The position numbers and the translations under genes were made by a program. Source: an uncultured Bacilli bacterium (GTDB taxonomy: Bacteria; Bacillota_I; Bacilli_A; RF39; UBA660). Taken from it: 40,081 nt of DNA. Positions 4,231 through 16,072 of the stretch are shown here, piece by piece. The stretch covers positions 1 through 40,081 of the forward strand of contig CANQIL010000012.1 of NCBI GenBank assembly GCA_947624045.1, written 5' to 3'. The first letter of the stretch is position 1. Every line of letters starts with the position of its first letter. The notes below the pieces were generated by a model that was not told where the DNA came from, ran no database searches, and saw nothing but the letters and a program-made list of their open reading frames with translations.

Positions 4231-6660
4231 ATGGGACTAACACAAGAAGAACAACTTCGTGCACAAGAAGTATTAAAATTATTTGATGAAATCGACAATC
4301 TAACAAAGGACTTAAGACAACAAATTACTTTAGAAGATTTAAAGTTAACAAAAAAGTACCTAAATAAAAAAATATCAATGTTAACAACTTTAAAAAAAGC
4401 TTATTTCCAAAATGATAAATTTGCCGAGTATGAAAAATGTAAAGAAGAAATTATTGCTTATAAAAATAGATATCGTACTTTAAAAAGCTTTGAACAAGAA
4501 TATATTACTAAGACAAGTGAAACAATAAAAAAACTAAATGTTGATAAAATAAAACATACTATTAATAATATTTTAATGTTAGATTTCTACTTTTCTAAAG
4601 AAGATAAAGAATTATTTTCTAATTATCTAGAAGATACAGATTATTTTAAAAGAATAGAAATTCTCTATAAACTAAGAGAAATCTATCTAGCCGCAACTTA
4701 TTATTTATATCGTAGTAAGAAAAAAGTAACAGAAGAAGCTTTTAAAATTATCTCTCGAGAAAATGGAATTGACGGCAAACTTAAGAAAAATAAAAAAGAG
4801 TTTTTCTATTTACTAAGCCAAGATAGATATAAAGAATTAAAAGATAAAGTAAGACTCATCAAAGAGCAATACAATAAAAGTAAAAGATTTTTAGAAGAAC
4901 TAGAAAAGCTTATTAAATATGAAAACTTTCAATATAAAAGTTCTATTCCTAAGAAAATACCAGAAATTGAAGACACTAATTATAAAGAAATAATTGAAAG
5001 TAAAAGTATAAGTGATGAGCTTATTAGAAGACTTGAAAATATTAAAGACGGCAAATACATAAGAAAATATGGCTTAGGTTTAGAAAAGTTTATTCCTAAA
5101 GAAATAACTACTTTCTTTGCTGATGTTGAAAAATTAGATGATGAAGCTTTAGAAGAATTTTCCCTATTAGGAATAGATGTATCTAAAAACAAATTAAAAT
5201 CTCTTAAAAAAGGTCAAAACTGTTATGATGATGTTGAAAGAGCTTTCTTAAAAAAGATTATTAAAAGATTTGAAAAGATAAGACCAATTGAGGTATATAC
5301 TGATAAAAAAGATACAACTATTTATTATGAAATACTAAATTGTTTAGTAGATAATGATAATAATTTCTCTTATATAGAAAAGTTAATTGAAGAAATACCT
5401 CTAATGAAAGAATCAAGAAAAGATGATAAGCATATAATAATTAATTTAATAGATAAATTTATTCTTAATTATAAATTAAAATTAGCTAATCAAGGTTTTA
5501 ATTATATCGAGCCTAACTTTTATAAAGAAATAATTAAATGTTTTTATAAGAATAATGTTGTCTTAACAGATGAAGAAGAAAAGTTAATTCAAACTAGATT
5601 AGATGAATTTTTAGAATATGCAACAACAAGAAAATATGCTTCTTTAAAGAATATAAAAGATGATGTTGATGAGTTAAAGACAAAAAGAAGTATAGAAAAA
5701 AGTTCTATTGATAAAGAAAAAATATCGCAAGAGTTAAAGTTTTTAGATATATCTAAAGATAGTGTTATAAGTAAATATTTGAATAAACAACCTATATATG
5801 TAAGTAATAATACTAGTAGTGTATTTATGATAAAAGGTATAAATAATTGTTGTTTTTCTATTGATTATAAAAATTATGAAGATATTACCTTTGGTATTCA
5901 TTTTCTAGATACTTCTAAGTTAATAGATAATGATAGTGAAATTATTAAAAGTGCTTTAGAAGAAAAGAGTTATCTTCCTAAGTTACAAATGAATGAGTAT
6001 GAGCCTGTTATGAGTTTTACTTATCAATTTAAAGATTTTAGACATATTACTGATTTAAGATTTTCTAAAGGCTTAGTTTATGTAGATAAAATGTATGATG
6101 AAAATGATATAGATAAATATCGTGATAAAGAAGATTTAAAGAATATGTATATTTTTATTAATAATTTTAAAAGTAAAGATAATATTAATAATATTTATAC
6201 AATTAATGGTATTAAAGAAGTTTTATTTAATACTTTAGGTAATGATTTAAAAAGAAAGTTTTATAATTATAAAATACCTTTCATATATGAAAGATGTCAA
6301 GAAGAAGCAGATGACTTAATTAGATTAAATCATAATGCTATTTGTGATAAGCTAAGTAAAATACCTAAAGAAGAAGCTCATAAGATATTTAGGATATTAG
6401 ATGAAAAGATAGATAAGTATTATGTACCTGATAGTAATAATGCTAATGTAGTATTTGATAGTAGTACATTTTTAGGTTATTATTTAATGTTTACTATTAA
6501 TATGATTATGAGTGGTAAGTATGATATAGATAAAGAAAGTGAAAATTTAAAAGTATATTTAGAGAAGTTAAATAGTAAAAGAGCTTATTTACCAGCTAAT
6601 ATTATTAAAAGTAATGAAAATAAAATAAAAAGAATAGTAAGAAGATATAAGAAAAGATAA
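4231..6660 (+). CDS. Large coiled-coil protein with a degenerate RNB (RNase II/R)-like C-terminal half
   Basis: 809 aa, no signal peptide or membrane segment, so cytoplasmic. The first ~500 residues are charged, Lys/Glu-rich and helical, and I do not recognise them. From about 531 the pattern follows the RNB exoribonuclease domain: FGIHFLDTS (554-562) matches the LGVHIADVSH block; a later VMSFTYQF segment matches LTMSCEMEI; FDSSTFLGYYLMF (742-754) matches the FTSPIRRYPDLLVH block. The metal-binding motif that precedes the first block in active enzymes (DxxxxDFDDA) reads KGINNCCFSI here (535-544), so the four catalytic Asp are absent. If homologous, it is an inactive RNA-binding or scaffold derivative. 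The RNB reading is my inference from spacing and short motifs; the gene itself is certain. It is monocistronic. Confidence 0.6.
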   Translation: MGLTQEEQLRAQEVLKLFDEIDNLTKDLRQQITLEDLKLTKKYLNKKISMLTTLKKAYFQNDKFAEYEKCKEEIIAYKNRYRTLKSFEQEYITKTSETIKKLNVDKIKHTINNILMLDFYFSKEDKELFSNYLEDTDYFKRIEILYKLREIYLAATYYLYRSKKKVTEEAFKIISRENGIDGKLKKNKKEFFYLLSQDRYKELKDKVRLIKEQYNKSKRFLEELEKLIKYENFQYKSSIPKKIPEIEDTNYKEIIESKSISDELIRRLENIKDGKYIRKYGLGLEKFIPKEITTFFADVEKLDDEALEEFSLLGIDVSKNKLKSLKKGQNCYDDVERAFLKKIIKRFEKIRPIEVYTDKKDTTIYYEILNCLVDNDNNFSYIEKLIEEIPLMKESRKDDKHIIINLIDKFILNYKLKLANQGFNYIEPNFYKEIIKCFYKNNVVLTDEEEKLIQTRLDEFLEYATTRKYASLKNIKDDVDELKTKRSIEKSSIDKEKISQELKFLDISKDSVISKYLNKQPIYVSNNTSSVFMIKGINNCCFSIDYKNYEDITFGIHFLDTSKLIDNDSEIIKSALEEKSYLPKLQMNEYEPVMSFTYQFKDFRHITDLRFSKGLVYVDKMYDENDIDKYRDKEDLKNMYIFINNFKSKDNINNIYTINGIKEVLFNTLGNDLKRKFYNYKIPFIYERCQEEADDLIRLNHNAICDKLSKIPKEEAHKIFRILDEKIDKYYVPDSNNANVVFDSSTFLGYYLMFTINMIMSGKYDIDKESENLKVYLEKLNSKRAYLPANIIKSNENKIKRIVRRYKKR

Positions 6661-6675
6661 TACTATTCTTTTTTT
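6631..6675 (+). terminator. Intrinsic terminator overlapping the gene end
   Basis: AGAATAGTA (6631-6639) pairs with TACTATTCT (6661-6669) across a 21-base loop that contains the stop codon; the T run reaches 6675. Confidence 0.65.
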
Positions 6676-6708
6676 ATGGTCAAATTTATAAAAAAAATTA
6701 AAAAGTTC

Positions 6709-6744
6709 TTGACAATACCCAATGGGGGGGGGGTATGCTATAGT
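6709..6744 (+). promoter_or_regulatory. Promoter with G10 tract in the spacer, candidate phase-variation switch
   Basis: Consensus -35 TTGACA (6709-6714) is followed by ATACCCAAT, ten consecutive G (6724-6733), and overlapping -10 candidates TATGCT (6734-6739) and TG-C-TATAGT (6736-6744). Spacer length is 19 bases to TATGCT and 24 to TATAGT. In such AT-rich DNA a G10 run is striking, and slippage would change the -35/-10 spacing directly. ATACCC and GGGTAT on either side are also an inverted repeat. Confidence 0.75.
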
Positions 6745-6786
6745 TAGGTAAAAATATAATTTGTGGAAAAAAGGTGTTTGAAAATA

Positions 6787-9519
6787 ATGGAAAAGTATAA
6801 TAAATATATCTTAATCTTAATAGCAGTAATTGTAATAGGTATGAGTATAGGTTATTCTGCCTTAAATAGTGATTTAAAAATAAGTGGAGAAGTAAACTAT
6901 CGACCTCAAGAAGATGTTAGGGTAACTAACTTTACGGCTAATAGTAAACCGGATAATATTACCATAGAATACTCAGACTATTCTAAAAATCAAGTAAAGT
7001 TAGGATATACAACTACAGGGGCTTGTAGTATTACTTATACAGTTGAAATTACTAATTATTCTACAGTAAATATGGGTATTTTAGAAATTTATGGTCTTGA
7101 TGAAAATGTAGAAGTACAAGAAAATATAATAGGTACTAAATTAGTAGGCTCAGGTGGTATTAAAGAATTTAATATTACATTTAATTCTACTACACCTGAA
7201 ACTAAAACGTATTTATTAACTTTTGAATTTGTCCCTATTTATACCGTTACTTATAATGGTCTAGGAAATACTGATGATTACGTACAAGAAACTTTGGAGG
7301 GAGGGCAATTAAAACAAGACTTAGGAAAAGATTCAGAAGTATGTAGTGTAACAATGGACGGAAAAAATTATACTGATTATACTTTTTCTAATGGAACTAT
7401 AATAATTGAAAATATAACAGGTGATATAGTTATAAATGGATATGCCCCAACAGTAGAGAAGCCAACTACACCAAATCCACCAGAATTAAATGGCGATATG
7501 ATACCGGTCTATTATCATAAAATAGACGATAAAACAGGTGAGTGGCGGAAAGCCGATGAAAGTAACTTAGATAATAAATGGTATGACTATGCTAGTCAAA
7601 AATGGGCCAATGTAGTTACTGTAATGGAAAATAGTTATGCGCCAAAGTCTAATGGTATTGAAGGAGTTAATTTTGTAAATCAAGTTTATAATTCATATAA
7701 AAGTACAAATCAGGGAAAAGATAGTACAACAAGTAATTTAACATTGAAATTCAAGACAGGTTCTACAGGAGGAACATTATCTTTTGATTATCAAGTTTCA
7801 AGCGAAAGCTATGATAAATTAACTATTAAAGTAAATGATGAAACAATTGCGAACAAAATAAAAGGAAATAAAAGTGATAATTATTCTAAGGATTTGGAAG
7901 CAAATACTAGTTATACTATTATAGCTGATTATGTAAAAGATATTAGTGGCAAAAGTAACGATGATACGGCATATATAAAAAATTTGGTGGTACCAAGTGA
8001 TTTAGCAGAACCTTTAACAGTAGATTCAACTGGTAATTATCAGTGGGTTCAAATGTATGAATATGAAGTTGCTTCAAGTTATGAAATCGATGTAACTTCT
8101 GGAATTTTTTCATTAAATAATCTAGAGGGACATTACTTTAGTTCAGATGATGTAGATAAGTATATGTGTAGTGACGGAGTATCAACGAGTTGTAATGAGT
8201 TATATAAAATAACTAATGTAGATGAAAATACTGTAAAAGAAGTAGAAAAATATGGTACAGAATCTGTTGATAGAAATTATTATAAAAATTTAAGTGTGGA
8301 TTCAGAAATACCAATGTATGTAATAAATACGATGTGGGTATGGATACCAAGATATTCCTATACAATAAAAAGTGAAAACGGAGGAACAAATTATTATGGT
8401 AAAAGGTCATCTTGTACAATGCCAACAAGAGAATTACCTGGAGAAATAGATGTAAAATTTATTTCCAAAAATATGGAAAGTGAAAAAGGAAAAGCACAGT
8501 ACATAGGCGATAAAGCAAGTGGTTGGTATACCAATGAAGCATTTGATTTTCCTGAAACTGATGAAGAAGAAAAGAATACTCCAACAAAAAGAGGAGGAAT
8601 ATGGGTAAGCAAATTTGAGCCAACAGGCACTTCCCCAAGTTGTACCAATACAAGTTGTAATGTAAGTAGTGTAACGGTAAAACCGGGTATAGCTTCAATA
8701 AAAAGTAAAACAGTAAGCAATTTCTACTTTATGTCAAGAAGTATGCAACTACATAATGCAAGTACTTATGGATTTGATGAGAATAATGGCGACTTGCATA
8801 TGATGAAAAATGATGAATGGGGAGCAGTAGCATATCTATCACAAAGTAGATATGGTAAATATGGAAACAGTGAATATACAGGGGCTAATAAAGAAGTATA
8901 TGTGAGTGGTGATTCAAATTATATAACAGGGGACACTAAAGGAAACATTAATGGAATTGGGACAACAACATATGCCTATAATGATATGACAAATTTAGGA
9001 AAAGGAAAAGGTCAAGCTGGCCCTGGAGCCTCAACAACAGGAAATATATACGGAATATATGATATGAGCGGAGGAGCATATGAATATGTAATGGGAGTAT
9101 TAGAGTATGATGAGCAGGGAGTAGAAGATAATGAAGGGAAAATCTTAACAGGTTCATCAGGATTTAAAGGGTTAAGTAGTAGTGGAAGTGCAACCGGAAG
9201 CTATGACTTGCCAAATGAGAAATACTATAACAAATATAAAAGTGCTAATCCAACGTCAGATAATTTTGCAAATGCAAAACCGGAATTAGCTTGTAACGGA
9301 GGGATATGTTACGGGCACGCTTTAAGTGAAACTTATGGGGCAAGTAGTGGAAACGGAGGCTGGTACATTGATTATGCTTACTTTGTTAACCGTAGTAGTT
9401 CTTGGTTTGCTTGTGGCGGACGATTCAACAGTGGTAATAATGCAGGTGTGTTCAGTATGTACTACGGTGCTGGTGGTTCCAGCCAATACTTCTCAACTCG
9501 CCTAGTCCTAACCCCCTAA
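6787..9519 (+). CDS. Surface-anchored protein with FGE/C-type-lectin-like C-terminal domain
   Basis: I start at ATG 6787 (910 aa), eleven bases after AAAAAGGTG; an upstream in-frame GTG lies before that RBS. Residues 5-28 form a hydrophobic signal or anchor ending GYSALNSDL, a type common in surface proteins of gut Firmicutes. Beta-rich Ig-like regions follow to about 230, then a Pro-rich linker (EKPTTPNPPELNG). From about 510 the protein resembles formylglycine-generating-enzyme/sulfatase-modifying or C-type lectin folds: MWVWIPRYSY, NDEWGAVAYLSQ, GIYDMSGGAYEY, and a terminal block WFACGGRFNSGNNAGVFS. Such folds are used as ligand-binding or variable adhesin heads; the role here is inferred. 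The last ~200 bases are visibly richer in G and C than the rest. Expression is probably controlled by the G10 promoter. Confidence 0.8.
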   Translation: MEKYNKYILILIAVIVIGMSIGYSALNSDLKISGEVNYRPQEDVRVTNFTANSKPDNITIEYSDYSKNQVKLGYTTTGACSITYTVEITNYSTVNMGILEIYGLDENVEVQENIIGTKLVGSGGIKEFNITFNSTTPETKTYLLTFEFVPIYTVTYNGLGNTDDYVQETLEGGQLKQDLGKDSEVCSVTMDGKNYTDYTFSNGTIIIENITGDIVINGYAPTVEKPTTPNPPELNGDMIPVYYHKIDDKTGEWRKADESNLDNKWYDYASQKWANVVTVMENSYAPKSNGIEGVNFVNQVYNSYKSTNQGKDSTTSNLTLKFKTGSTGGTLSFDYQVSSESYDKLTIKVNDETIANKIKGNKSDNYSKDLEANTSYTIIADYVKDISGKSNDDTAYIKNLVVPSDLAEPLTVDSTGNYQWVQMYEYEVASSYEIDVTSGIFSLNNLEGHYFSSDDVDKYMCSDGVSTSCNELYKITNVDENTVKEVEKYGTESVDRNYYKNLSVDSEIPMYVINTMWVWIPRYSYTIKSENGGTNYYGKRSSCTMPTRELPGEIDVKFISKNMESEKGKAQYIGDKASGWYTNEAFDFPETDEEEKNTPTKRGGIWVSKFEPTGTSPSCTNTSCNVSSVTVKPGIASIKSKTVSNFYFMSRSMQLHNASTYGFDENNGDLHMMKNDEWGAVAYLSQSRYGKYGNSEYTGANKEVYVSGDSNYITGDTKGNINGIGTTTYAYNDMTNLGKGKGQAGPGASTTGNIYGIYDMSGGAYEYVMGVLEYDEQGVEDNEGKILTGSSGFKGLSSSGSATGSYDLPNEKYYNKYKSANPTSDNFANAKPELACNGGICYGHALSETYGASSGNGGWYIDYAYFVNRSSSWFACGGRFNSGNNAGVFSMYYGAGGSSQYFSTRLVLTP

Positions 9520-10142
9520 CCCCTCTTTAGAAAGGTTATCTTACGACCTTCTTTTTTTATGATTTTATCCTTTTCTAAATTAGAAAGCTCCCTCATAAAA
9601 TTACTCCTATCAATTAATAAATAATCCGCAATAGCCTTATAAGACGTAGTTACTAAAAAGACTCCATATTCATTAATACGACTCTTTAAAAAGAAAAGAA
9701 TCTTACTTCTAACAGTCCTCTTCGAAAGAAGCTCAATTTTTTCATTTAACTCCTTATCATCTTTAATTAACAAATCAAAAAGATTTAAAACTAACTGATT
9801 ATGGAAAGGACAATTCATCGAACAGTCCTTTAAAATAGCATAATAATTTATAAAAACTACTTCCGTAATATTACTATTTGAAACTACATATATCTCATCT
9901 TCTGAATCAACATAAAACAAATTAGAAAAAATATCATTTTCCTTTAACTCTCTTAAAACAACCTTATTACCATTCTCATCTAACTTAATAATAGTAGCTC
10001 TACCATAAGTAATAAAAGCCATTTGCTTAATACGCGTATTCAAATTTAAAATAAGCTCTCTATTGTAAAATGTTTTACAAGTAGTATTGACACATTTAGA
10101 CAAATAATTTTTTAACTGTAAATTTTCAGTAGTATCAAACAT
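9516..10142 (-). CDS. Crp/Fnr family transcriptional regulator
   Basis: 208 aa from ATG 10142, chosen because AGGTGG (complement of 10149-10154) lies six bases upstream; an open frame runs further but covers the promoter. It has an N-terminal cyclic-nucleotide-type beta-roll (YGRATIIKLDENGNKVVLREL), then a long dimerisation helix after CSMNCPFHNQL, then a Crp-type winged helix near residues 163-195 (YKAIADYLLIDRSNFMREL). Cysteines in the N-terminus and in CSMNCPF are compatible with redox or metal sensing, but no specific ligand can be assigned. It is divergent from nrdD with a palindrome between them, so it may control the nrd genes and itself. Its 3' end overlaps the upstream surface gene tail to tail by 4 bp. 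Confidence 0.9.
   Translation of the reverse strand: MFDTTENLQLKNYLSKCVNTTCKTFYNRELILNLNTRIKQMAFITYGRATIIKLDENGNKVVLRELKENDIFSNLFYVDSEDEIYVVSNSNITEVVFINYYAILKDCSMNCPFHNQLVLNLFDLLIKDDKELNEKIELLSKRTVRSKILFFLKSRINEYGVFLVTTSYKAIADYLLIDRSNFMRELSNLEKDKIIKKEGRKITFLKRG
9529..9558 (+). terminator. Terminator of the surface gene, inside the regulator's coding region
   Basis: AGAAAGGT pairs with ACCTTCT (one bulged A), followed by seven T. On the minus strand the same bases encode the last residues of the Crp-family protein. Confidence 0.6.
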
Positions 10143-10164
10143 TTTAGACCACCTCATCACTTTC

Positions 10165-10193
10165 ATTATAGCAACTTTTATTTTTTGTTGCAA
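10165..10193 (-). promoter_or_regulatory. Promoter of the Crp/Fnr family gene
   Basis: On the minus strand TTGCAA, 17 bases, TATAAT (complement of 10165-10170). The -35 lies inside the palindrome at 10187-10200. Confidence 0.75.
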
Positions 10194-10200
10194 ATGCAAC
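10187..10200. promoter_or_regulatory. Palindromic operator candidate
   Basis: GTTGCAAATGCAAC is a perfect dyad (GTTGCA-AA-TGCAAC on one strand). It overlaps the -35 of the regulator and sits next to the -35 region of nrdD, where an autoregulating Crp-family protein would be expected to bind. Confidence 0.6.
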
Positions 10201-10256
10201 AGTAAAAAACACTAAAATACGTTTAAAATGAAGTGCATAGGATAGGAGTAAAAATT

Positions 10257-12398
10257 ATGAGTAAACAAGAAAAAGATATAATGATAGTAAAAAGAAATGG
10301 CAACTTAGAAAAATTTGACCCTGAAAGAATAAAAAAAGCCATAACAGCATCAGCTGAAAGAGTAATGGTCGACTTAACCGAAGAAGCGACTCAAGACGTT
10401 ATTACTAGAGTAAAAAAATTACTAAGTACCCAAACAACAAATCCAACTGTAGAACAAGTTCACAGTTGTTGCGAAGCAGCCCTAGAACAAGTAAACCCAC
10501 TTGTTGCTAAGAGTTACCGAGAATATCGTGACTATAAAAAAGATATTGTTCATATACTAGACAAGGTCTATAAAAAAGCCCAAGTAATTACTTATATAGG
10601 TGATAAAGAATGCGCTAATATGGATAGTGCCTTAGTAACTACTCAAAGATGTTTAATCTATAATAGCTTAAATAAAGAACTATACAAAAAGTTTTTCTTG
10701 ACACCTGCTGAAATAGAAGCTTGTAAAGATGGCTATATCTATATTCACGATATGAGTGCTAGAAGAGATACTATGAATTGTTGTTTATTTGATATGGCTA
10801 ATGTCTTAAAAGACGGTTTTGAAATGAGCAATATTTGGTATACTGAGCCCAAAACTTTAGGAACGGCTTTTAACGTAATGGGCGATGTAATTAATAATAC
10901 AACAGCTATGCAATATGGCGGTTTTACAGTACCAGAAGTTGATACTACTTTGAAAAAATATGCTAAGATGAGCTATGATAAATATTATGAAGAATACTTA
11001 GATATAAAGGGTAAGAAATATACTGATGAAGCTAAAGATTATGCTTGGAAAAAAGTAAAAAGAGAATGTGTACAAGGTTATCAAGGTATTGAATATAAAC
11101 TAAATACCGTTAGCTCTAGTAGAGGAGATTATCCTTTTGTTACCTTTACTTTTGGAGTTGATAAAGACCCTTTTGCTGTTATGATTGCTCAAACAATATT
11201 GAATGTTCATAAAGAAGGCCAAGGCAAAAAAGGTTTCAAAAGACCAACCCTATTTCCTAAATTAGTCTTCTTATATGATAAAAACTTACACGGTAAAGGT
11301 AAAGAATTAAGAGATAGTTTCTTATGCGCTATTGAGTGTAGTAAAAAAACAATGTATCCTGATTATCTTTCATTAACAGGTGAGGGTTATGTACCAGAGA
11401 TGTATAAAAAATATGGTAGAATTGTTAGTCCTATGGGTTGTCGTGCTTTTCTTTCACCTTGGTATGAAAAAGGTGGTATGAAGCCTGCTGATAAAAATGA
11501 TAAGCCAATATTTATAGGTAGATTTAATATAGGAGCTATTTCCCTACATTTACCAATGATTTTAGCTAAGTCTAGAGAAGAACAAAAAGATTTTTATGAA
11601 GTATTAGATTACTACTTAGAAATGATTCGAAAAATCCATATTCGTACATATCGTTATTTAGCTAAAAGAAAAGCTTCAACGAATCCACTTTCCTATTGTC
11701 AAGGAGGTTTTTATGGCGGACATTTGAAACCGGAAGAAGCAATTGAGCCTATCTTAAAATCATCAACGGCCTCTTTTGGAATAACAGCTTTGAATGAGTT
11801 GCAAGTCCTATACAATGGTAAAAGTATTGTTGAAGATGGACAGTTTGCTTTAGATGTCTTAAAATATATTAATGATAAAACTACAGAATTTAAAGAACAA
11901 GACCATATCTTATATGCTATTTATGGAACACCTGCGGAAAACTTATGTGGTTTACAAATCCAACAATTTAGAAAAAAATATGGCGTTGTCGAGGGTGTAA
12001 GCTCTAGAGAGTATGTTTCTAATAGTTTCCATTGTGGCGTTTGGGAAGATATAACCGGTATCGAAAAACAAGACTTAGAAGAAAGATTCTGGGAATTATG
12101 TAAAGGTGGTCGTATTCAATATGTTAGATATAATCTAAGTTATAATACCGAAGCTATGTTAACCTACGTTGAAAGAGCTATGGAAAAAGGCTTTTATGAG
12201 GGAGTTAATTTATCATTAGCTTACTGTAATCACTGTGGTCACGAAGAATTAGATATGGACGTTTGTCCAAAATGTGGTAGTAGTGATTTAACTAAGATAG
12301 ATAGAATGAATGGTTACCTTTCATATTCTAGAGTCCACGGCGATACTATGCTAAGTAATGCTAAAATGGTCGAAATTTCAGAAAGGAAGTCTATGTAA
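10257..12398 (+). CDS. nrdD: Anaerobic (class III) ribonucleoside-triphosphate reductase, complete
   Basis: 713 aa from ATG 10257, behind AGGAG at 10244-10248. It reduces ribonucleotides to deoxyribonucleotides under anaerobic conditions using a glycyl radical made by NrdG. Seen: N-terminal ATP-cone (IVKRNGNLEKFDPERI); catalytic barrel with NCC at 174-176 and MGCR at 393-396; zinc site C657, C660, C670, C673; glycyl-radical loop RMNGYL with Gly686. Everything needed is in one chain, unlike the second copy at 13754. The stop TAA is directly followed by the ATG of nrdG, so the two are co-translated. A possible promoter uses TTGCAA in the palindrome and TAAAAT at 10213-10218, with a long 19-base spacer. 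Confidence 0.96.
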   Translation: MSKQEKDIMIVKRNGNLEKFDPERIKKAITASAERVMVDLTEEATQDVITRVKKLLSTQTTNPTVEQVHSCCEAALEQVNPLVAKSYREYRDYKKDIVHILDKVYKKAQVITYIGDKECANMDSALVTTQRCLIYNSLNKELYKKFFLTPAEIEACKDGYIYIHDMSARRDTMNCCLFDMANVLKDGFEMSNIWYTEPKTLGTAFNVMGDVINNTTAMQYGGFTVPEVDTTLKKYAKMSYDKYYEEYLDIKGKKYTDEAKDYAWKKVKRECVQGYQGIEYKLNTVSSSRGDYPFVTFTFGVDKDPFAVMIAQTILNVHKEGQGKKGFKRPTLFPKLVFLYDKNLHGKGKELRDSFLCAIECSKKTMYPDYLSLTGEGYVPEMYKKYGRIVSPMGCRAFLSPWYEKGGMKPADKNDKPIFIGRFNIGAISLHLPMILAKSREEQKDFYEVLDYYLEMIRKIHIRTYRYLAKRKASTNPLSYCQGGFYGGHLKPEEAIEPILKSSTASFGITALNELQVLYNGKSIVEDGQFALDVLKYINDKTTEFKEQDHILYAIYGTPAENLCGLQIQQFRKKYGVVEGVSSREYVSNSFHCGVWEDITGIEKQDLEERFWELCKGGRIQYVRYNLSYNTEAMLTYVERAMEKGFYEGVNLSLAYCNHCGHEELDMDVCPKCGSSDLTKIDRMNGYLSYSRVHGDTMLSNAKMVEISERKSM

Positions 12399-12944
12399 AT
12401 GCGGTATCATAATATTACCAAAGCAGATATGCTTAATGGTGAGGGGTTAAGAGTGGTACTTTGGTGTAGTGGTTGTTCTCATCATTGTATGGCCTGTCAA
12501 AATGCTATTACGTGGGACAAAAATGACGGCTTAGTCTTTGATGAAGCGGCTAAAGAAGAAATCTTTACTGAATTAGAAAAAGACTGGTGTAGTGGCCTAA
12601 CCTTATCCGGAGGTGACCCACTATTTCTAGATAATAGAAAAGATATTGCTAAATTAGTAAAAGAAGTCAAAGAAAAATTCCCTAATAAAACTATTTGGAG
12701 TTATACCGGTTTTACTTGGGAAGAATTACTTGAGCAAAAGAAAAAAGATAAAGACTTAGAAACAATTCTTAATAATATAGATGTCTTACTAGACGGAAAA
12801 TTTGTTTTAAAATTAGCTTTAGAAAAACTTCATTATGTAGGTAGTACTAATCAATGCATAATAGATGTAAAAAAAAGCTTAGAAGAAAATAAGAAAATTT
12901 TATATATAGATAATAGTAATATAATAGGAGAGTGTGAAGTATGA
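12399..12944 (+). CDS. nrdG: Anaerobic ribonucleotide reductase activating enzyme (radical SAM)
   Basis: 181 aa. It uses S-adenosylmethionine and a [4Fe-4S] cluster to install the glycyl radical on NrdD. The CxxxCxxC motif is C26, C30, C33 (CSHHCMAC), and the Gly-rich SAM motif is LSGGDPL. It starts at the base after the nrdD stop, with AAAGGAAG upstream inside nrdD, and overlaps dut by 4 bases (ATGA). Its partner is most simply the NrdD at 10257, but it could also act on the split system downstream. Confidence 0.95.
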   Translation: MRYHNITKADMLNGEGLRVVLWCSGCSHHCMACQNAITWDKNDGLVFDEAAKEEIFTELEKDWCSGLTLSGGDPLFLDNRKDIAKLVKEVKEKFPNKTIWSYTGFTWEELLEQKKKDKDLETILNNIDVLLDGKFVLKLALEKLHYVGSTNQCIIDVKKSLEENKKILYIDNSNIIGECEV

Positions 12945-13396
12945 AACATAGAGGATTTGAAGTAGTAAAAGGTTATGAAGATAAAAATATAAATATACCA
13001 GTTAGAAAAACTGCTCATTCAGCAGGGTATGATGTTGAAGCAGCCGAAGATATTGTTATCCCAAAATATTATCCAGGCATAAAGCCAACCTTAGTACCAA
13101 CCGGCTTAAAAGCTTATTGTGAAGATGATGAATGCTTCTTATTACTAAATAGAAGTAGTGGACCTAAAAAAGGCTTTATATTAGCTAATAGTGTAGGACT
13201 AGTTGATTCTGATTATTATGGAAATATTGATAATGACGGACACTTTTTCTTTGCTTATTTTAACTGTAGTGATAAAGATATTCAAGTTAAAAAAGGTGAT
13301 GTAATAGGACAAGTCGTTTTTACAAAATATCTAGTAGCCGATGATGACAATGCTACAGGTATTAGAACAGGTGGCTTTGGTTCAACTGATAAATAA
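12941..13396 (+). CDS. dut: dUTP diphosphatase (dUTPase)
   Basis: 151 aa trimeric-type dUTPase. It hydrolyses dUTP to dUMP and diphosphate, preventing uracil incorporation and feeding dTMP synthesis. Conserved motifs are visible: AGYDVEAAEDI (motif 1), RSSGPKKGFILANSVG then DSDYYG (motifs 2-3), GDVIGQVVF (motif 4), and the C-terminal arm GGFGSTDK (motif 5). Motif 2 usually reads RSSLGKKG; here the order is RSSGPKKG. The ATGA overlap with nrdG makes an nrdD-nrdG-dut operon, a coherent dNTP-supply unit. Confidence 0.92.
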   Translation: MKHRGFEVVKGYEDKNINIPVRKTAHSAGYDVEAAEDIVIPKYYPGIKPTLVPTGLKAYCEDDECFLLLNRSSGPKKGFILANSVGLVDSDYYGNIDNDGHFFFAYFNCSDKDIQVKKGDVIGQVVFTKYLVADDDNATGIRTGGFGSTDK

Positions 13397-13753
13397 ATAA
13401 TTAAAAAGCAAAATTAAAAAAATAGTGAAAAATAAAGAAAATTTAAAAAGTGATTTTTTAGATTTTCTTATTTTTTTCAAAAACAAAATTTAAAAAACAT
13501 TGAAAAATAAAGAAAACAGTAAAAAAGAAATATTGAAAAATGCAAAAAATGAAATTTATAACTTTTTTATTTTTTAAAAAATGTATAAAAATGTAAATTG
13601 TCGTAAATCGAACAAAAAAATTTTTTTAGTAGATTCTTTATATATCAATGAATTGAAAAAATTTCCAAAAAATGTATAAAAAAACAGTATTGCATTTTGG
13701 AAAAATAGCTCTTAAAATTGACTTAAAGAGTTAAGAAATGTGAGGTAAAAATT
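13397..13753. other. Long, almost purely A/T leader between dut and the second nrdD
   Basis: 357 bases without a credible gene. It contains a 16-base direct repeat TGAAAAATAAAGAAAA (13426-13441 and 13501-13516) and a second pair AAAAAATGTATAAAAA (13576-13591 and 13667-13682), plus a weak TAAAAA/TTTTTA hairpin near 13445-13460 that may terminate dut. The nrdD2 promoter is at its right end. Confidence 0.6.
13690..13718 (+). promoter_or_regulatory. Promoter of the second nrdD operon
   Basis: TTGCAT (13690-13695), 17 bases, TAAAAT (13713-13718). The -35 region reads TTGCATTTTGGAA, which partly resembles the palindrome TTGCATTTGCAA between the Crp gene and nrdD1, so a shared regulator is possible. 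The RBS GAGG at 13742-13745 precedes ATG 13754. Confidence 0.65.
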
Positions 13754-16072
13754 ATGGCAGAAGTAAGTGAAATTTTAGAAGATTTAAAAGTAGTAAAAAG
13801 AAGTGGTAAAAAAGTTGATTTTGATGGTAAAAAAATAGCTATAGCCATAAAAAAGGGATTTGATAGTGTAGAAGTAGATACTGATGAGGAAGAAAAAGAG
13901 AAAAAGTATTCAAGTAAAGATGTTCAAAAAGTCTATCAAGCTGTTTTAAAAAGATTAGAAAAAGAAGCTAAAGATAAAGATAAAATTCAAATTGAAGAAA
14001 TACAAGATTTAATTGAAGAAGAATTATCTAATAAAGGTTATGAAGATGTTCATAAAAGTTTTTCTGAATATAGAGATAGAAGAAATGCTTCTCGTCAATC
14101 ATTCTTTGCTGATAAAAAGACTCATAAATTTTTAAAATCACTTGAAAATTTAGGTTTAAAATCAGCTAATGAAGAAGATGCTAAAAGAGAAAATGCTAAT
14201 ATTGATGGTAATTCTCCAATGGGAACAATGCTTCAATATGGCGCAACAGTATCAAAAGAATTTGCTAAAGCTTATTTAATGAAACCTGAATATGCTAAAA
14301 TGCACGATGAGGGAACTATCCACATTCACGATATGGATTTCCTAGCTATGGGTACAACAACATGTTGCCAAATAGATTTATCAAGACTATTTAAAAATGG
14401 TTTTGATACCGGACATGGCTTTGTAAGACCTCCTCAAGATATTAGTACTTATGGTTCCCTAGCTGCTATTGTTATTCAAGCTAATCAAAACGACCAACAC
14501 GGTGGTCAAGCTATACCAGCACTTGATTATTACTTAGCACCTGGTGTTTTAAAAACATTTAAAAAACAATTTAAACAAACTATATATGATTTTCTAGATT
14601 TAGACGGTTTCTTAGAACATATTAACGTTGATAGAATAATTAGAGAAATCGATAAATTAGAAAGCATAGAATTTGATATAGAAACTCTTACTGATTATCA
14701 AAAAGCATCAAATAGAGTAAAAGAAATATTCAAAAAAGCTTATGAAAAGGCACTTCAAAAAACAGATAGAGCTACTCAACAAGCTATGGAAGCATTTATT
14801 CATAATTTAAATACAATGCATTCTAGAGCTGGAGCTCAAGTACCATTTTCATCAGTTAACTTTGGAACAGACACATCACCTGAGGGAAGAATGGTAATTA
14901 AAAACTTCTTACTATCAGCTGATAGAGGCTTAGGTAAAGGAGAAACACCAATTTTCCCGGTATCAATATTTAAAGTAAAAGAGGGCGTTAACTATAATAA
15001 GGAAGATAAGAACTATGACTTATTTAGATTAGCTTGTAAAGTTTCCGCAAAAAGACTTTTCCCTAATTTCTCATTTATTGATGCACCATTCAATTTACAA
15101 TACTATAAACCAGGAAATCCAGCTACGGAAATAGCTTATATGGGTTGCCGTACAAGAGTAATTGGTGATGTAACAGCTCCTGATAATGAAGTAGTTGTAG
15201 GAAGAGGTAATCTTTCTTGGACAACAATTAACTTACCAAGATTAGGAATTAAATATGGTATTGCTTTAAAAGAAAGAGATAAAGCTGATATAAAAGGCTT
15301 CTATGCTGAACTTGATTCTTTAATGGAAACAGTTAAAGATCAATTACTTGAAAGATTTGAAGTCCAATGTAATAAACGTTGCTACAACTTCCCATTCTTG
15401 TTAGGTCAAGGTGTTTGGACAAATGGTGAGAAATTAAAACCTACAGACAGACTTAGAAAAGTATGGAAACACGGCTCACTTTCAATTGGTTTTATCGGTC
15501 TTGCTGAATGTTTAAAAGCTTTGACAGGTAAACATCACGGCGAAAGTGAAGAAAGTCAAAAACTAGGCTTAGATATTGTTAAATTTATGCGTAAAAAATG
15601 TGATGAATTTGCTCAAGAGTACCATTTGAACTTTGCTTGTTTAGCAACACCAGCCGAAGGTTTATCTGGTAGATTTACAGCTATTGATAAAGCTATCTAT
15701 GGCAAGATTAAGGGTGTTACTGATAGAGAATATTACACAAATTCATTCCACGTACCAGTATATTATCATATAAGCATTCATGATAAACTATATACAGAAG
15801 CTCCATACCATGCTTTAACGAATGGTGGTCATATTTCATACATAGAATTAGATGGAGATGCTGCTTCTAATGTTGATGCCTTTGAAAGAGTTATTCATAC
15901 TATGAAAGATGCTGGTATAGGCTATGGAGCAGTAAATCACCCTGTTGACCGTGACCCAGTTTGTGGTTATGTAGGAGTTATTAATGATGTTTGTCCAGGT
16001 TGTGGACGTAAGGAATTCGAAGGAGTTCCAATTGAAAGAGTATCTTCTATTGATACAAAATGTTGTGAATAG
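13754..16072 (+). CDS. nrdD: Class III ribonucleotide reductase catalytic chain lacking the glycyl-radical loop
   Basis: 772 aa. ATP-cone at about 10-105 (VVKRSGKKVDFDGKKI); barrel with TTCCQIDL (C204, C205) and MGCR at 463-466; RGNLSWTTINLPRL active-site segment. It belongs to a different NrdD subgroup from the copy at 10257. The C-terminal zinc region reads DPVCGYVGVINDVCPGCG: C737, C747 and C750 are present, but the position where I expect the first Cys is D734. In full-length relatives the text after GVPIERV continues into the RRxTGYL glycyl-radical loop; here it diverges to SSIDTKCCE and stops at TAG 16070. The missing loop is encoded separately at 16117-16290. The chain alone cannot carry the catalytic radical, so it should need that small protein. 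Confidence 0.93.
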   Translation: MAEVSEILEDLKVVKRSGKKVDFDGKKIAIAIKKGFDSVEVDTDEEEKEKKYSSKDVQKVYQAVLKRLEKEAKDKDKIQIEEIQDLIEEELSNKGYEDVHKSFSEYRDRRNASRQSFFADKKTHKFLKSLENLGLKSANEEDAKRENANIDGNSPMGTMLQYGATVSKEFAKAYLMKPEYAKMHDEGTIHIHDMDFLAMGTTTCCQIDLSRLFKNGFDTGHGFVRPPQDISTYGSLAAIVIQANQNDQHGGQAIPALDYYLAPGVLKTFKKQFKQTIYDFLDLDGFLEHINVDRIIREIDKLESIEFDIETLTDYQKASNRVKEIFKKAYEKALQKTDRATQQAMEAFIHNLNTMHSRAGAQVPFSSVNFGTDTSPEGRMVIKNFLLSADRGLGKGETPIFPVSIFKVKEGVNYNKEDKNYDLFRLACKVSAKRLFPNFSFIDAPFNLQYYKPGNPATEIAYMGCRTRVIGDVTAPDNEVVVGRGNLSWTTINLPRLGIKYGIALKERDKADIKGFYAELDSLMETVKDQLLERFEVQCNKRCYNFPFLLGQGVWTNGEKLKPTDRLRKVWKHGSLSIGFIGLAECLKALTGKHHGESEESQKLGLDIVKFMRKKCDEFAQEYHLNFACLATPAEGLSGRFTAIDKAIYGKIKGVTDREYYTNSFHVPVYYHISIHDKLYTEAPYHALTNGGHISYIELDGDAASNVDAFERVIHTMKDAGIGYGAVNHPVDRDPVCGYVGVINDVCPGCGRKEFEGVPIERVSSIDTKCCE

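Follow-up and report, generated by a model that had tools for sequence, protein, structure and literature searches.

Promoters with a poly-G spacer upstream of a hypervariable surface-protein family in an uncultured Bacilli bacterium

Most known cases of transcriptional phase variation by homopolymeric spacers involve a small number of pathogen genes. At the porA and fetA genes of Neisseria, as described in PMC5320596 and in the discussion of PMC7864442, a homopolymeric G or C tract lies between the −35 and −10 elements, and its length alters both their spacing and transcription of the surface protein. In Treponema pallidum, poly-G tracts of 8 to 10 residues were tested for an effect on transcription of tprL, which belongs to a family of paralogous surface proteins (PMC7864442). 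The TvpA-type multi-target diversity-generating retroelements (DGRs) of Treponema denticola comprise a reverse transcriptase (RT), a template repeat and two to seven remote targets with FGE-like C-termini, along with leftover targets (PMC4891356). Here we analyzed a 40,081-nucleotide stretch of DNA (the window) from an uncultured Bacilli bacterium, which, like Neisseria porA and fetA, contains a promoter with a pure homopolymer between its −35 and −10 elements.

Anatomy of the promoter and its genomic copies

The window promoter lies on the forward strand at positions 6709 to 6744. It opens with the −35 hexamer TTGACA (6709–6714), identical in 32 of 32 genomic copies, followed by nine bases, ATACCCAAT (N9; 6715–6723), a tract of exactly ten G (6724–6733), which is the proposed slippage switch, and our preferred −10 hexamer, TATGCT (6734–6739), at a spacer of 19 bp from TTGACA; this hexamer reads TATGAT in 19 of the 32 copies. 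An alternative extended −10, TGC-TATAGT (6736–6744), overlaps TATGCT and has a spacer of 24 from TTGACA. The conserved 5′ leader (6745–6786) carries the ribosome-binding site AAAGGTG (6770–6776), and the promoter stands 53 bp upstream of the ATG of a gene encoding a 910-aa membrane-anchored protein. The preceding gene ends at 6660 and is separated from the promoter by a terminator-like inverted repeat (6627–6639/6661–6673), whose downstream arm and T run (6661–6677, forward strand) probably form the terminator of that gene. Runs of seven or more G occur at one place only in the window, 6724–6733 (four overlapping matches; 0.22 expected from shuffles, with 0 of 100 shuffles reaching four).

The original prediction had placed a G10 tract between a perfect −35 and a −10 element at a spacer of 19, and the sequence confirmed both coordinates and spacing. 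A hairpin formed by the flanking ATACCC and GGGTAT had also been suggested. The inverted repeat is present, but it folds no better than shuffled sequences (z = −0.44), and the ATACCC arm, found in only 10 of the 32 copies and absent from 22, is not conserved because N9 diverges freely among copies; the hairpin was therefore rejected. Phase variation by an invertible promoter was also rejected, as no long inverted repeat flanking 6709–6744 was found within 6600–6900.

The genome (1.65 Mb in 83 contigs) contains 36 tracts of eight or more G, all of which were read. In 32 of these the tract sits in the same promoter context, with the consensus TTGACA-N9-Gn-TATGMTATA, and the same pattern read backwards, used as a control, was found 0 times. 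The anatomy shared by the 32 copies is TTGACA-N9(or 10)-G9..11-TATGMTATANTTAG..TAAAAATA..GTGGAAAA, with the start codon ∼42 to 54 bases after the tract, and the leader that follows the tract is strongly conserved. A search allowing three mismatches revealed a 33rd copy, with the interrupted tract GGGGGTGGGG, at C10:40363. From composition, ∼0.012 runs of at least ten G are expected genome-wide. Nearly all of the ∼33 promoter copies precede genes of one hypervariable surface-protein family.

G tracts were also seen in other settings. Two of the remaining four tracts, on contig C69 (L060, positions 352 and 2276), belong to a second promoter type, TTGACTTA-G10, which precedes two genes, and the product of one shares the lectin-like C-terminus; this contig may be from another organism. 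The other two, G10 and G9 tracts on contig C35 (L076, 3224 and 14500), lie within two polysaccharide-locus genes, one acetyltransferase-like, whose reading frames are interrupted. There the frame of the continuation begins with a stop directly behind the tract, and simple one-base slippage therefore offers no explanation. Finally, truncated promoter copies (−35/G-tract) are joined to AGRCTGTCYGAGAATGA, perhaps the end of an insertion element, in two species (L079, 15625, reverse strand; L242, 2162, forward strand).

The surface-protein family and its retroelements

The window gene (6787–9519, forward strand) is predicted to encode a 910-aa membrane-anchored surface protein that belongs to a paralogous family and has a C-terminal FGE/C-type-lectin-like domain. 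The best start codon is the ATG at 6787, which has AAAGGTG in front of it; the mechanical ORF instead opens with the GTG at 6763. The paralogs are mostly 660 to 915 aa long, with an N-terminal anchor and the C-terminus W..RGG....AG.F....G....RLTLTP; a few are short genes of 187 aa, one of which precedes a DGR target on contig C22. The N-terminal membrane anchors of the window gene, its paralogs and its relatives were recognized by eye in the translations. The C-terminus of the window gene matched PF03781 below threshold (E = 0.0035), and a paralog matched with an E value of 9.7 × 10⁻⁵. AlphaFold2 run without an alignment on the window C-terminus gave a pLDDT of 30, which is unusable as fold evidence, and a profile search of the family C-termini against PDB sequences gave no matches. 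The protein had been called adhesin-like; the reading as an anchored surface protein stood, but an anchored protein with a DGR-target-like C-terminus is the better label. Convergent with this gene is a gene for a CRP/FNR-like regulator (9516–10199, reverse strand). Apparent NrdD-like, NrdG-like activase and dUTPase-like genes, read by eye, occupy 10233–16072, and a second anaerobic ribonucleotide reductase beside them was confirmed by Pfam.

Three DGR loci were found in the genome, with target, template repeat, Avd (NF033474, PF22296) and RT. In the variable regions of five family members, differences from the template fall almost only at adenines. Specifically, 23 of 42 adenines and one other base were changed in the first region, 21 adenines and three other bases in the second, 10 adenines and no other base in the third, 19 and one in the fourth, and 15 and none in the fifth. 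The RT on C22 (L074, 4597–5630) is split by stops, yet the differences between template and variable region there are cleanly adenine-only. A further RT, in two pieces, lies on C62 (L090, 1655–2504). The core DGR target on contig C29 has an ordinary promoter with an 18-bp spacer and no G tract, and so provides a natural control.

Within the window gene, a variable-region-like segment (9376–9505, forward strand) matches the DGR template TR1 without gaps at 61% identity. Its mismatches (A, 25 of 42; C, 17 of 37; G, 6 of 27; T, 3 of 24) are in excess at template adenines (p = 0.002), but changes occur at all bases, and this segment lacks the almost adenine-only pattern of the five paralogs. Judged from its sequence, the window gene looks like a variable region that is older and has drifted, and it is not proven to be a current DGR target.

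Tract length, promoter spacing and the proposed switch

We propose that the ten G in the spacer of this σA-type promoter act as a contingency switch, where slipped-strand mispairing at replication would add or remove G residues; slippage at any one locus is inferred. The G count would set the −35/−10 distance (17 bp for G8, 18 bp for G9, 19 bp for G10 and 20 bp for G11) and thereby change the transcription rate, an inference made in the absence of expression data. Because ordinary TTGAC-TATAAT pairs in the DNA fetched from this genome most commonly have a spacer of 17, G10 is long and G8 to G9 are nearer the optimum. G10 (19 bp) would then be a weak state and G8 to G9 stronger, the ON lengths being inferred. 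With ∼33 genes, nearly all paralogs, behind the same promoter, strong expression in any one cell would be limited to part of the family, and some members would additionally be rewritten by the DGRs of the same genome. By this inference, the most likely situation is a low state for the majority of family members and a higher one for the three G9 copies.

Among the 32 copies, tract length is G10 in 28, G9 in three and G11 in one, and the spacer is 18 bp in three, 19 bp in 26 and 20 bp in three, two copies having one additional base ahead of the tract. All 54 flanking bases compared are identical between L061 and L067, which differ solely in having G10 versus G11. The copies align without gaps, by substitutions only, over the first ∼23 bases after the tract, and thus the length changes sit at the tract and its upstream edge. 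N9, beside the tract, shows 0.40 pairwise differences per site among copies, and only one copy has an interrupted tract; given this pure tract next to a diverging N9, the sequence comparison indicates that the homopolymer itself is maintained. All these lengths are metagenome-type assembly consensus, with no read-level or strain-level lengths at single loci behind them.

Among 193 genomes from this family, 60 contained the pattern TTGAC-gap-G8-T and two contained the reversed control; in a sample drawn across the class, no genome outside the family had more than five such sites. The exact window motif is absent from 59 relatives because N9 differs, and the looser pattern finds the promoter. 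Genes behind tracts in related genomes mostly encode an N-terminal anchor, and a few are pilin-like. Among copies whose pre-tract flanks are identical or almost so, tract length runs from 8 to 13 in genome G125, 9 to 14 in G019 and 11 to 16 in G183. When 19 genomes from 19 genera were compared, with TATAAT as the anchor and with rows partly de-duplicated by hand, the numbers of bases before and after the tract were anticorrelated (Spearman rho = −0.78, p = 8 × 10⁻⁵). The total −35/−10 distance had a standard deviation of 2.1, versus 4.3 if the two were independent, and was mostly 15 to 21, most commonly 19. Such a trade-off with a kept total is what a promoter spacer predicts. A search for same-species promoter copies in viral contigs gave only a chance match inside a phage gene. 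Among the matches listed, poly-G between TTGACA and TATG also occurs in Spirochaetaceae, Treponema, Mucispirillum and Clostridia MAGs, before predicted lipoprotein or signal-peptide genes, and this promoter type may be widespread; the broad contig scan behind these examples mixes likely chance matches with real-looking lipoprotein promoters and serves as background only.

The −10 element is not experimentally fixed, and the extended alternative is not excluded. The working −10 could be TGN-TATANT, 24 bp from TTGACA, with slippage acting otherwise, through upstream contacts, melting or regulator access. TGMTATANTT is kept in 31 of the 32 copies, and the tract-free C29 paralog has TATAATTTAGATAAGAATA at spacer 18, which resembles the second hexamer plus leader. 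However, the homologous leader of G001, a genome of the same genus, often has TATAAT directly after the tract, copy L074 retains TATGAT but has lost the second hexamer, and TTGACA never varies, even though at a distance of 24 bp it could contribute little. We consider this reading unlikely but still to be reckoned with. Somewhat less plausible is a fixed structural or regulator-binding element, in which poly(dG) geometry or a regulon factor selects a length near ten and nothing switches. In its favor, 28 of the 32 tracts are exactly G10, so length may be constrained rather than free; the leader is strongly conserved as well, and in genome G110 nearly all copies among the matches listed share the same total spacing. 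Against it, lengths differ between copies with identical flanks and span the ranges given above in other genera, and the tract occupies different positions within the spacer in different genera, which would be unusual for a binding site at a fixed distance. That the promoter copies are mere passengers of recent gene duplication or of a mobile element, their G tracts without regulatory role, is very improbable: the family has clearly undergone duplication, upstream DNA is common to some copies, and truncated −35/G-tract copies run into AGRCTGTCYGAGAATGA in two species, but coding regions and N9 have strongly diverged while tract and hexamers were kept, and in other genera, other surface genes carry the tract at a different place without loss of the spacing.

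Slipped-strand phase variation of the porA/fetA type, acting on a hypervariable surface-protein repertoire, is the explanation we favor with good confidence, slippage, its transcriptional effect and surface exposure all being inferred. The data, which include neither reads nor expression measurements, strongly suggest that G-run slippage turns family members up and down. Observed directly were the promoter family, length variation at the level of paralogs, conservation of spacing across genera, and three DGR loci, with five family members showing A-directed variation. The central idea of the original prediction, a slippage-prone spacer that makes transcription of a surface protein switchable, drew support from the 33-copy family, from length differences between otherwise identical copies, from near-perfect tract purity beside a diverging N9 and from a −35/−10 distance that is kept across genera while tract position is not; phase variation itself remains an inference.

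Across the family genomes, DGR-like RTs and poly-G promoters were not associated (13 shared, p = 0.55), indicating that the two systems are independent. G001 has 42 TTGAC-gap-G8 sites and no match to a DGR-like RT, which together with the lack of a DGR link across the family points to the switch as a general device of the group. In the present genome, the poly-G switch is laid over the DGR target repertoire. Whether two independent diversity generators serve one family, with DGRs rewriting the ligand-binding tips of some members and poly-G slippage picking the expressed members of ∼33, is in our judgment an even call.

Comparison with known systems

The arrangement occurs in 60 of the 193 genomes of the family and has the appearance of a system operating genome-wide in uncultured bacteria with small genomes. 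If DGRs and poly-G tracts act together, an uncultured bacterium would have a mutable and selectable surface-protein repertoire. The poly-G switch is directly testable in existing metagenome reads, and the promoters, with their naturally differing spacer lengths and tract positions, lend themselves to studying how promoter strength depends on spacing and on G-tract DNA. A search of titles and abstracts found no paper joining DGRs with homopolymeric-tract phase variation, which is weak evidence of novelty.

At tprL of T. pallidum, the tract overlaps the −10 region and leaves the −35/−10 spacing unchanged, whereas the tract described here lies in the spacer; the extended −10 alternative parallels the non-spacing route discussed for tprL. 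Like the TvpA-type DGRs, this genome has an RT, a template repeat and several remote targets with putatively FGE-like C-termini, as well as leftover targets. Unlike them, it has ∼30 family members, nearly all behind a poly-G promoter and only five with current A-directed variation, and the words "promoter" and "phase variation" are absent from the paper on TvpA-type DGRs (PMC4891356). Neisseria porA and fetA represent few genes per genome, whereas ∼33 mostly paralogous genes share one design in this 1.65-Mb genome. They also differ in that the present bacterium is unrelated and uncultured, that some of its genes belong to a DGR system and that the effect of length is here inferred. On the evidence of sequence, then, the type of switch appears to be one already known, and what sets it apart is its unusual scale and its combination with DGR targets.
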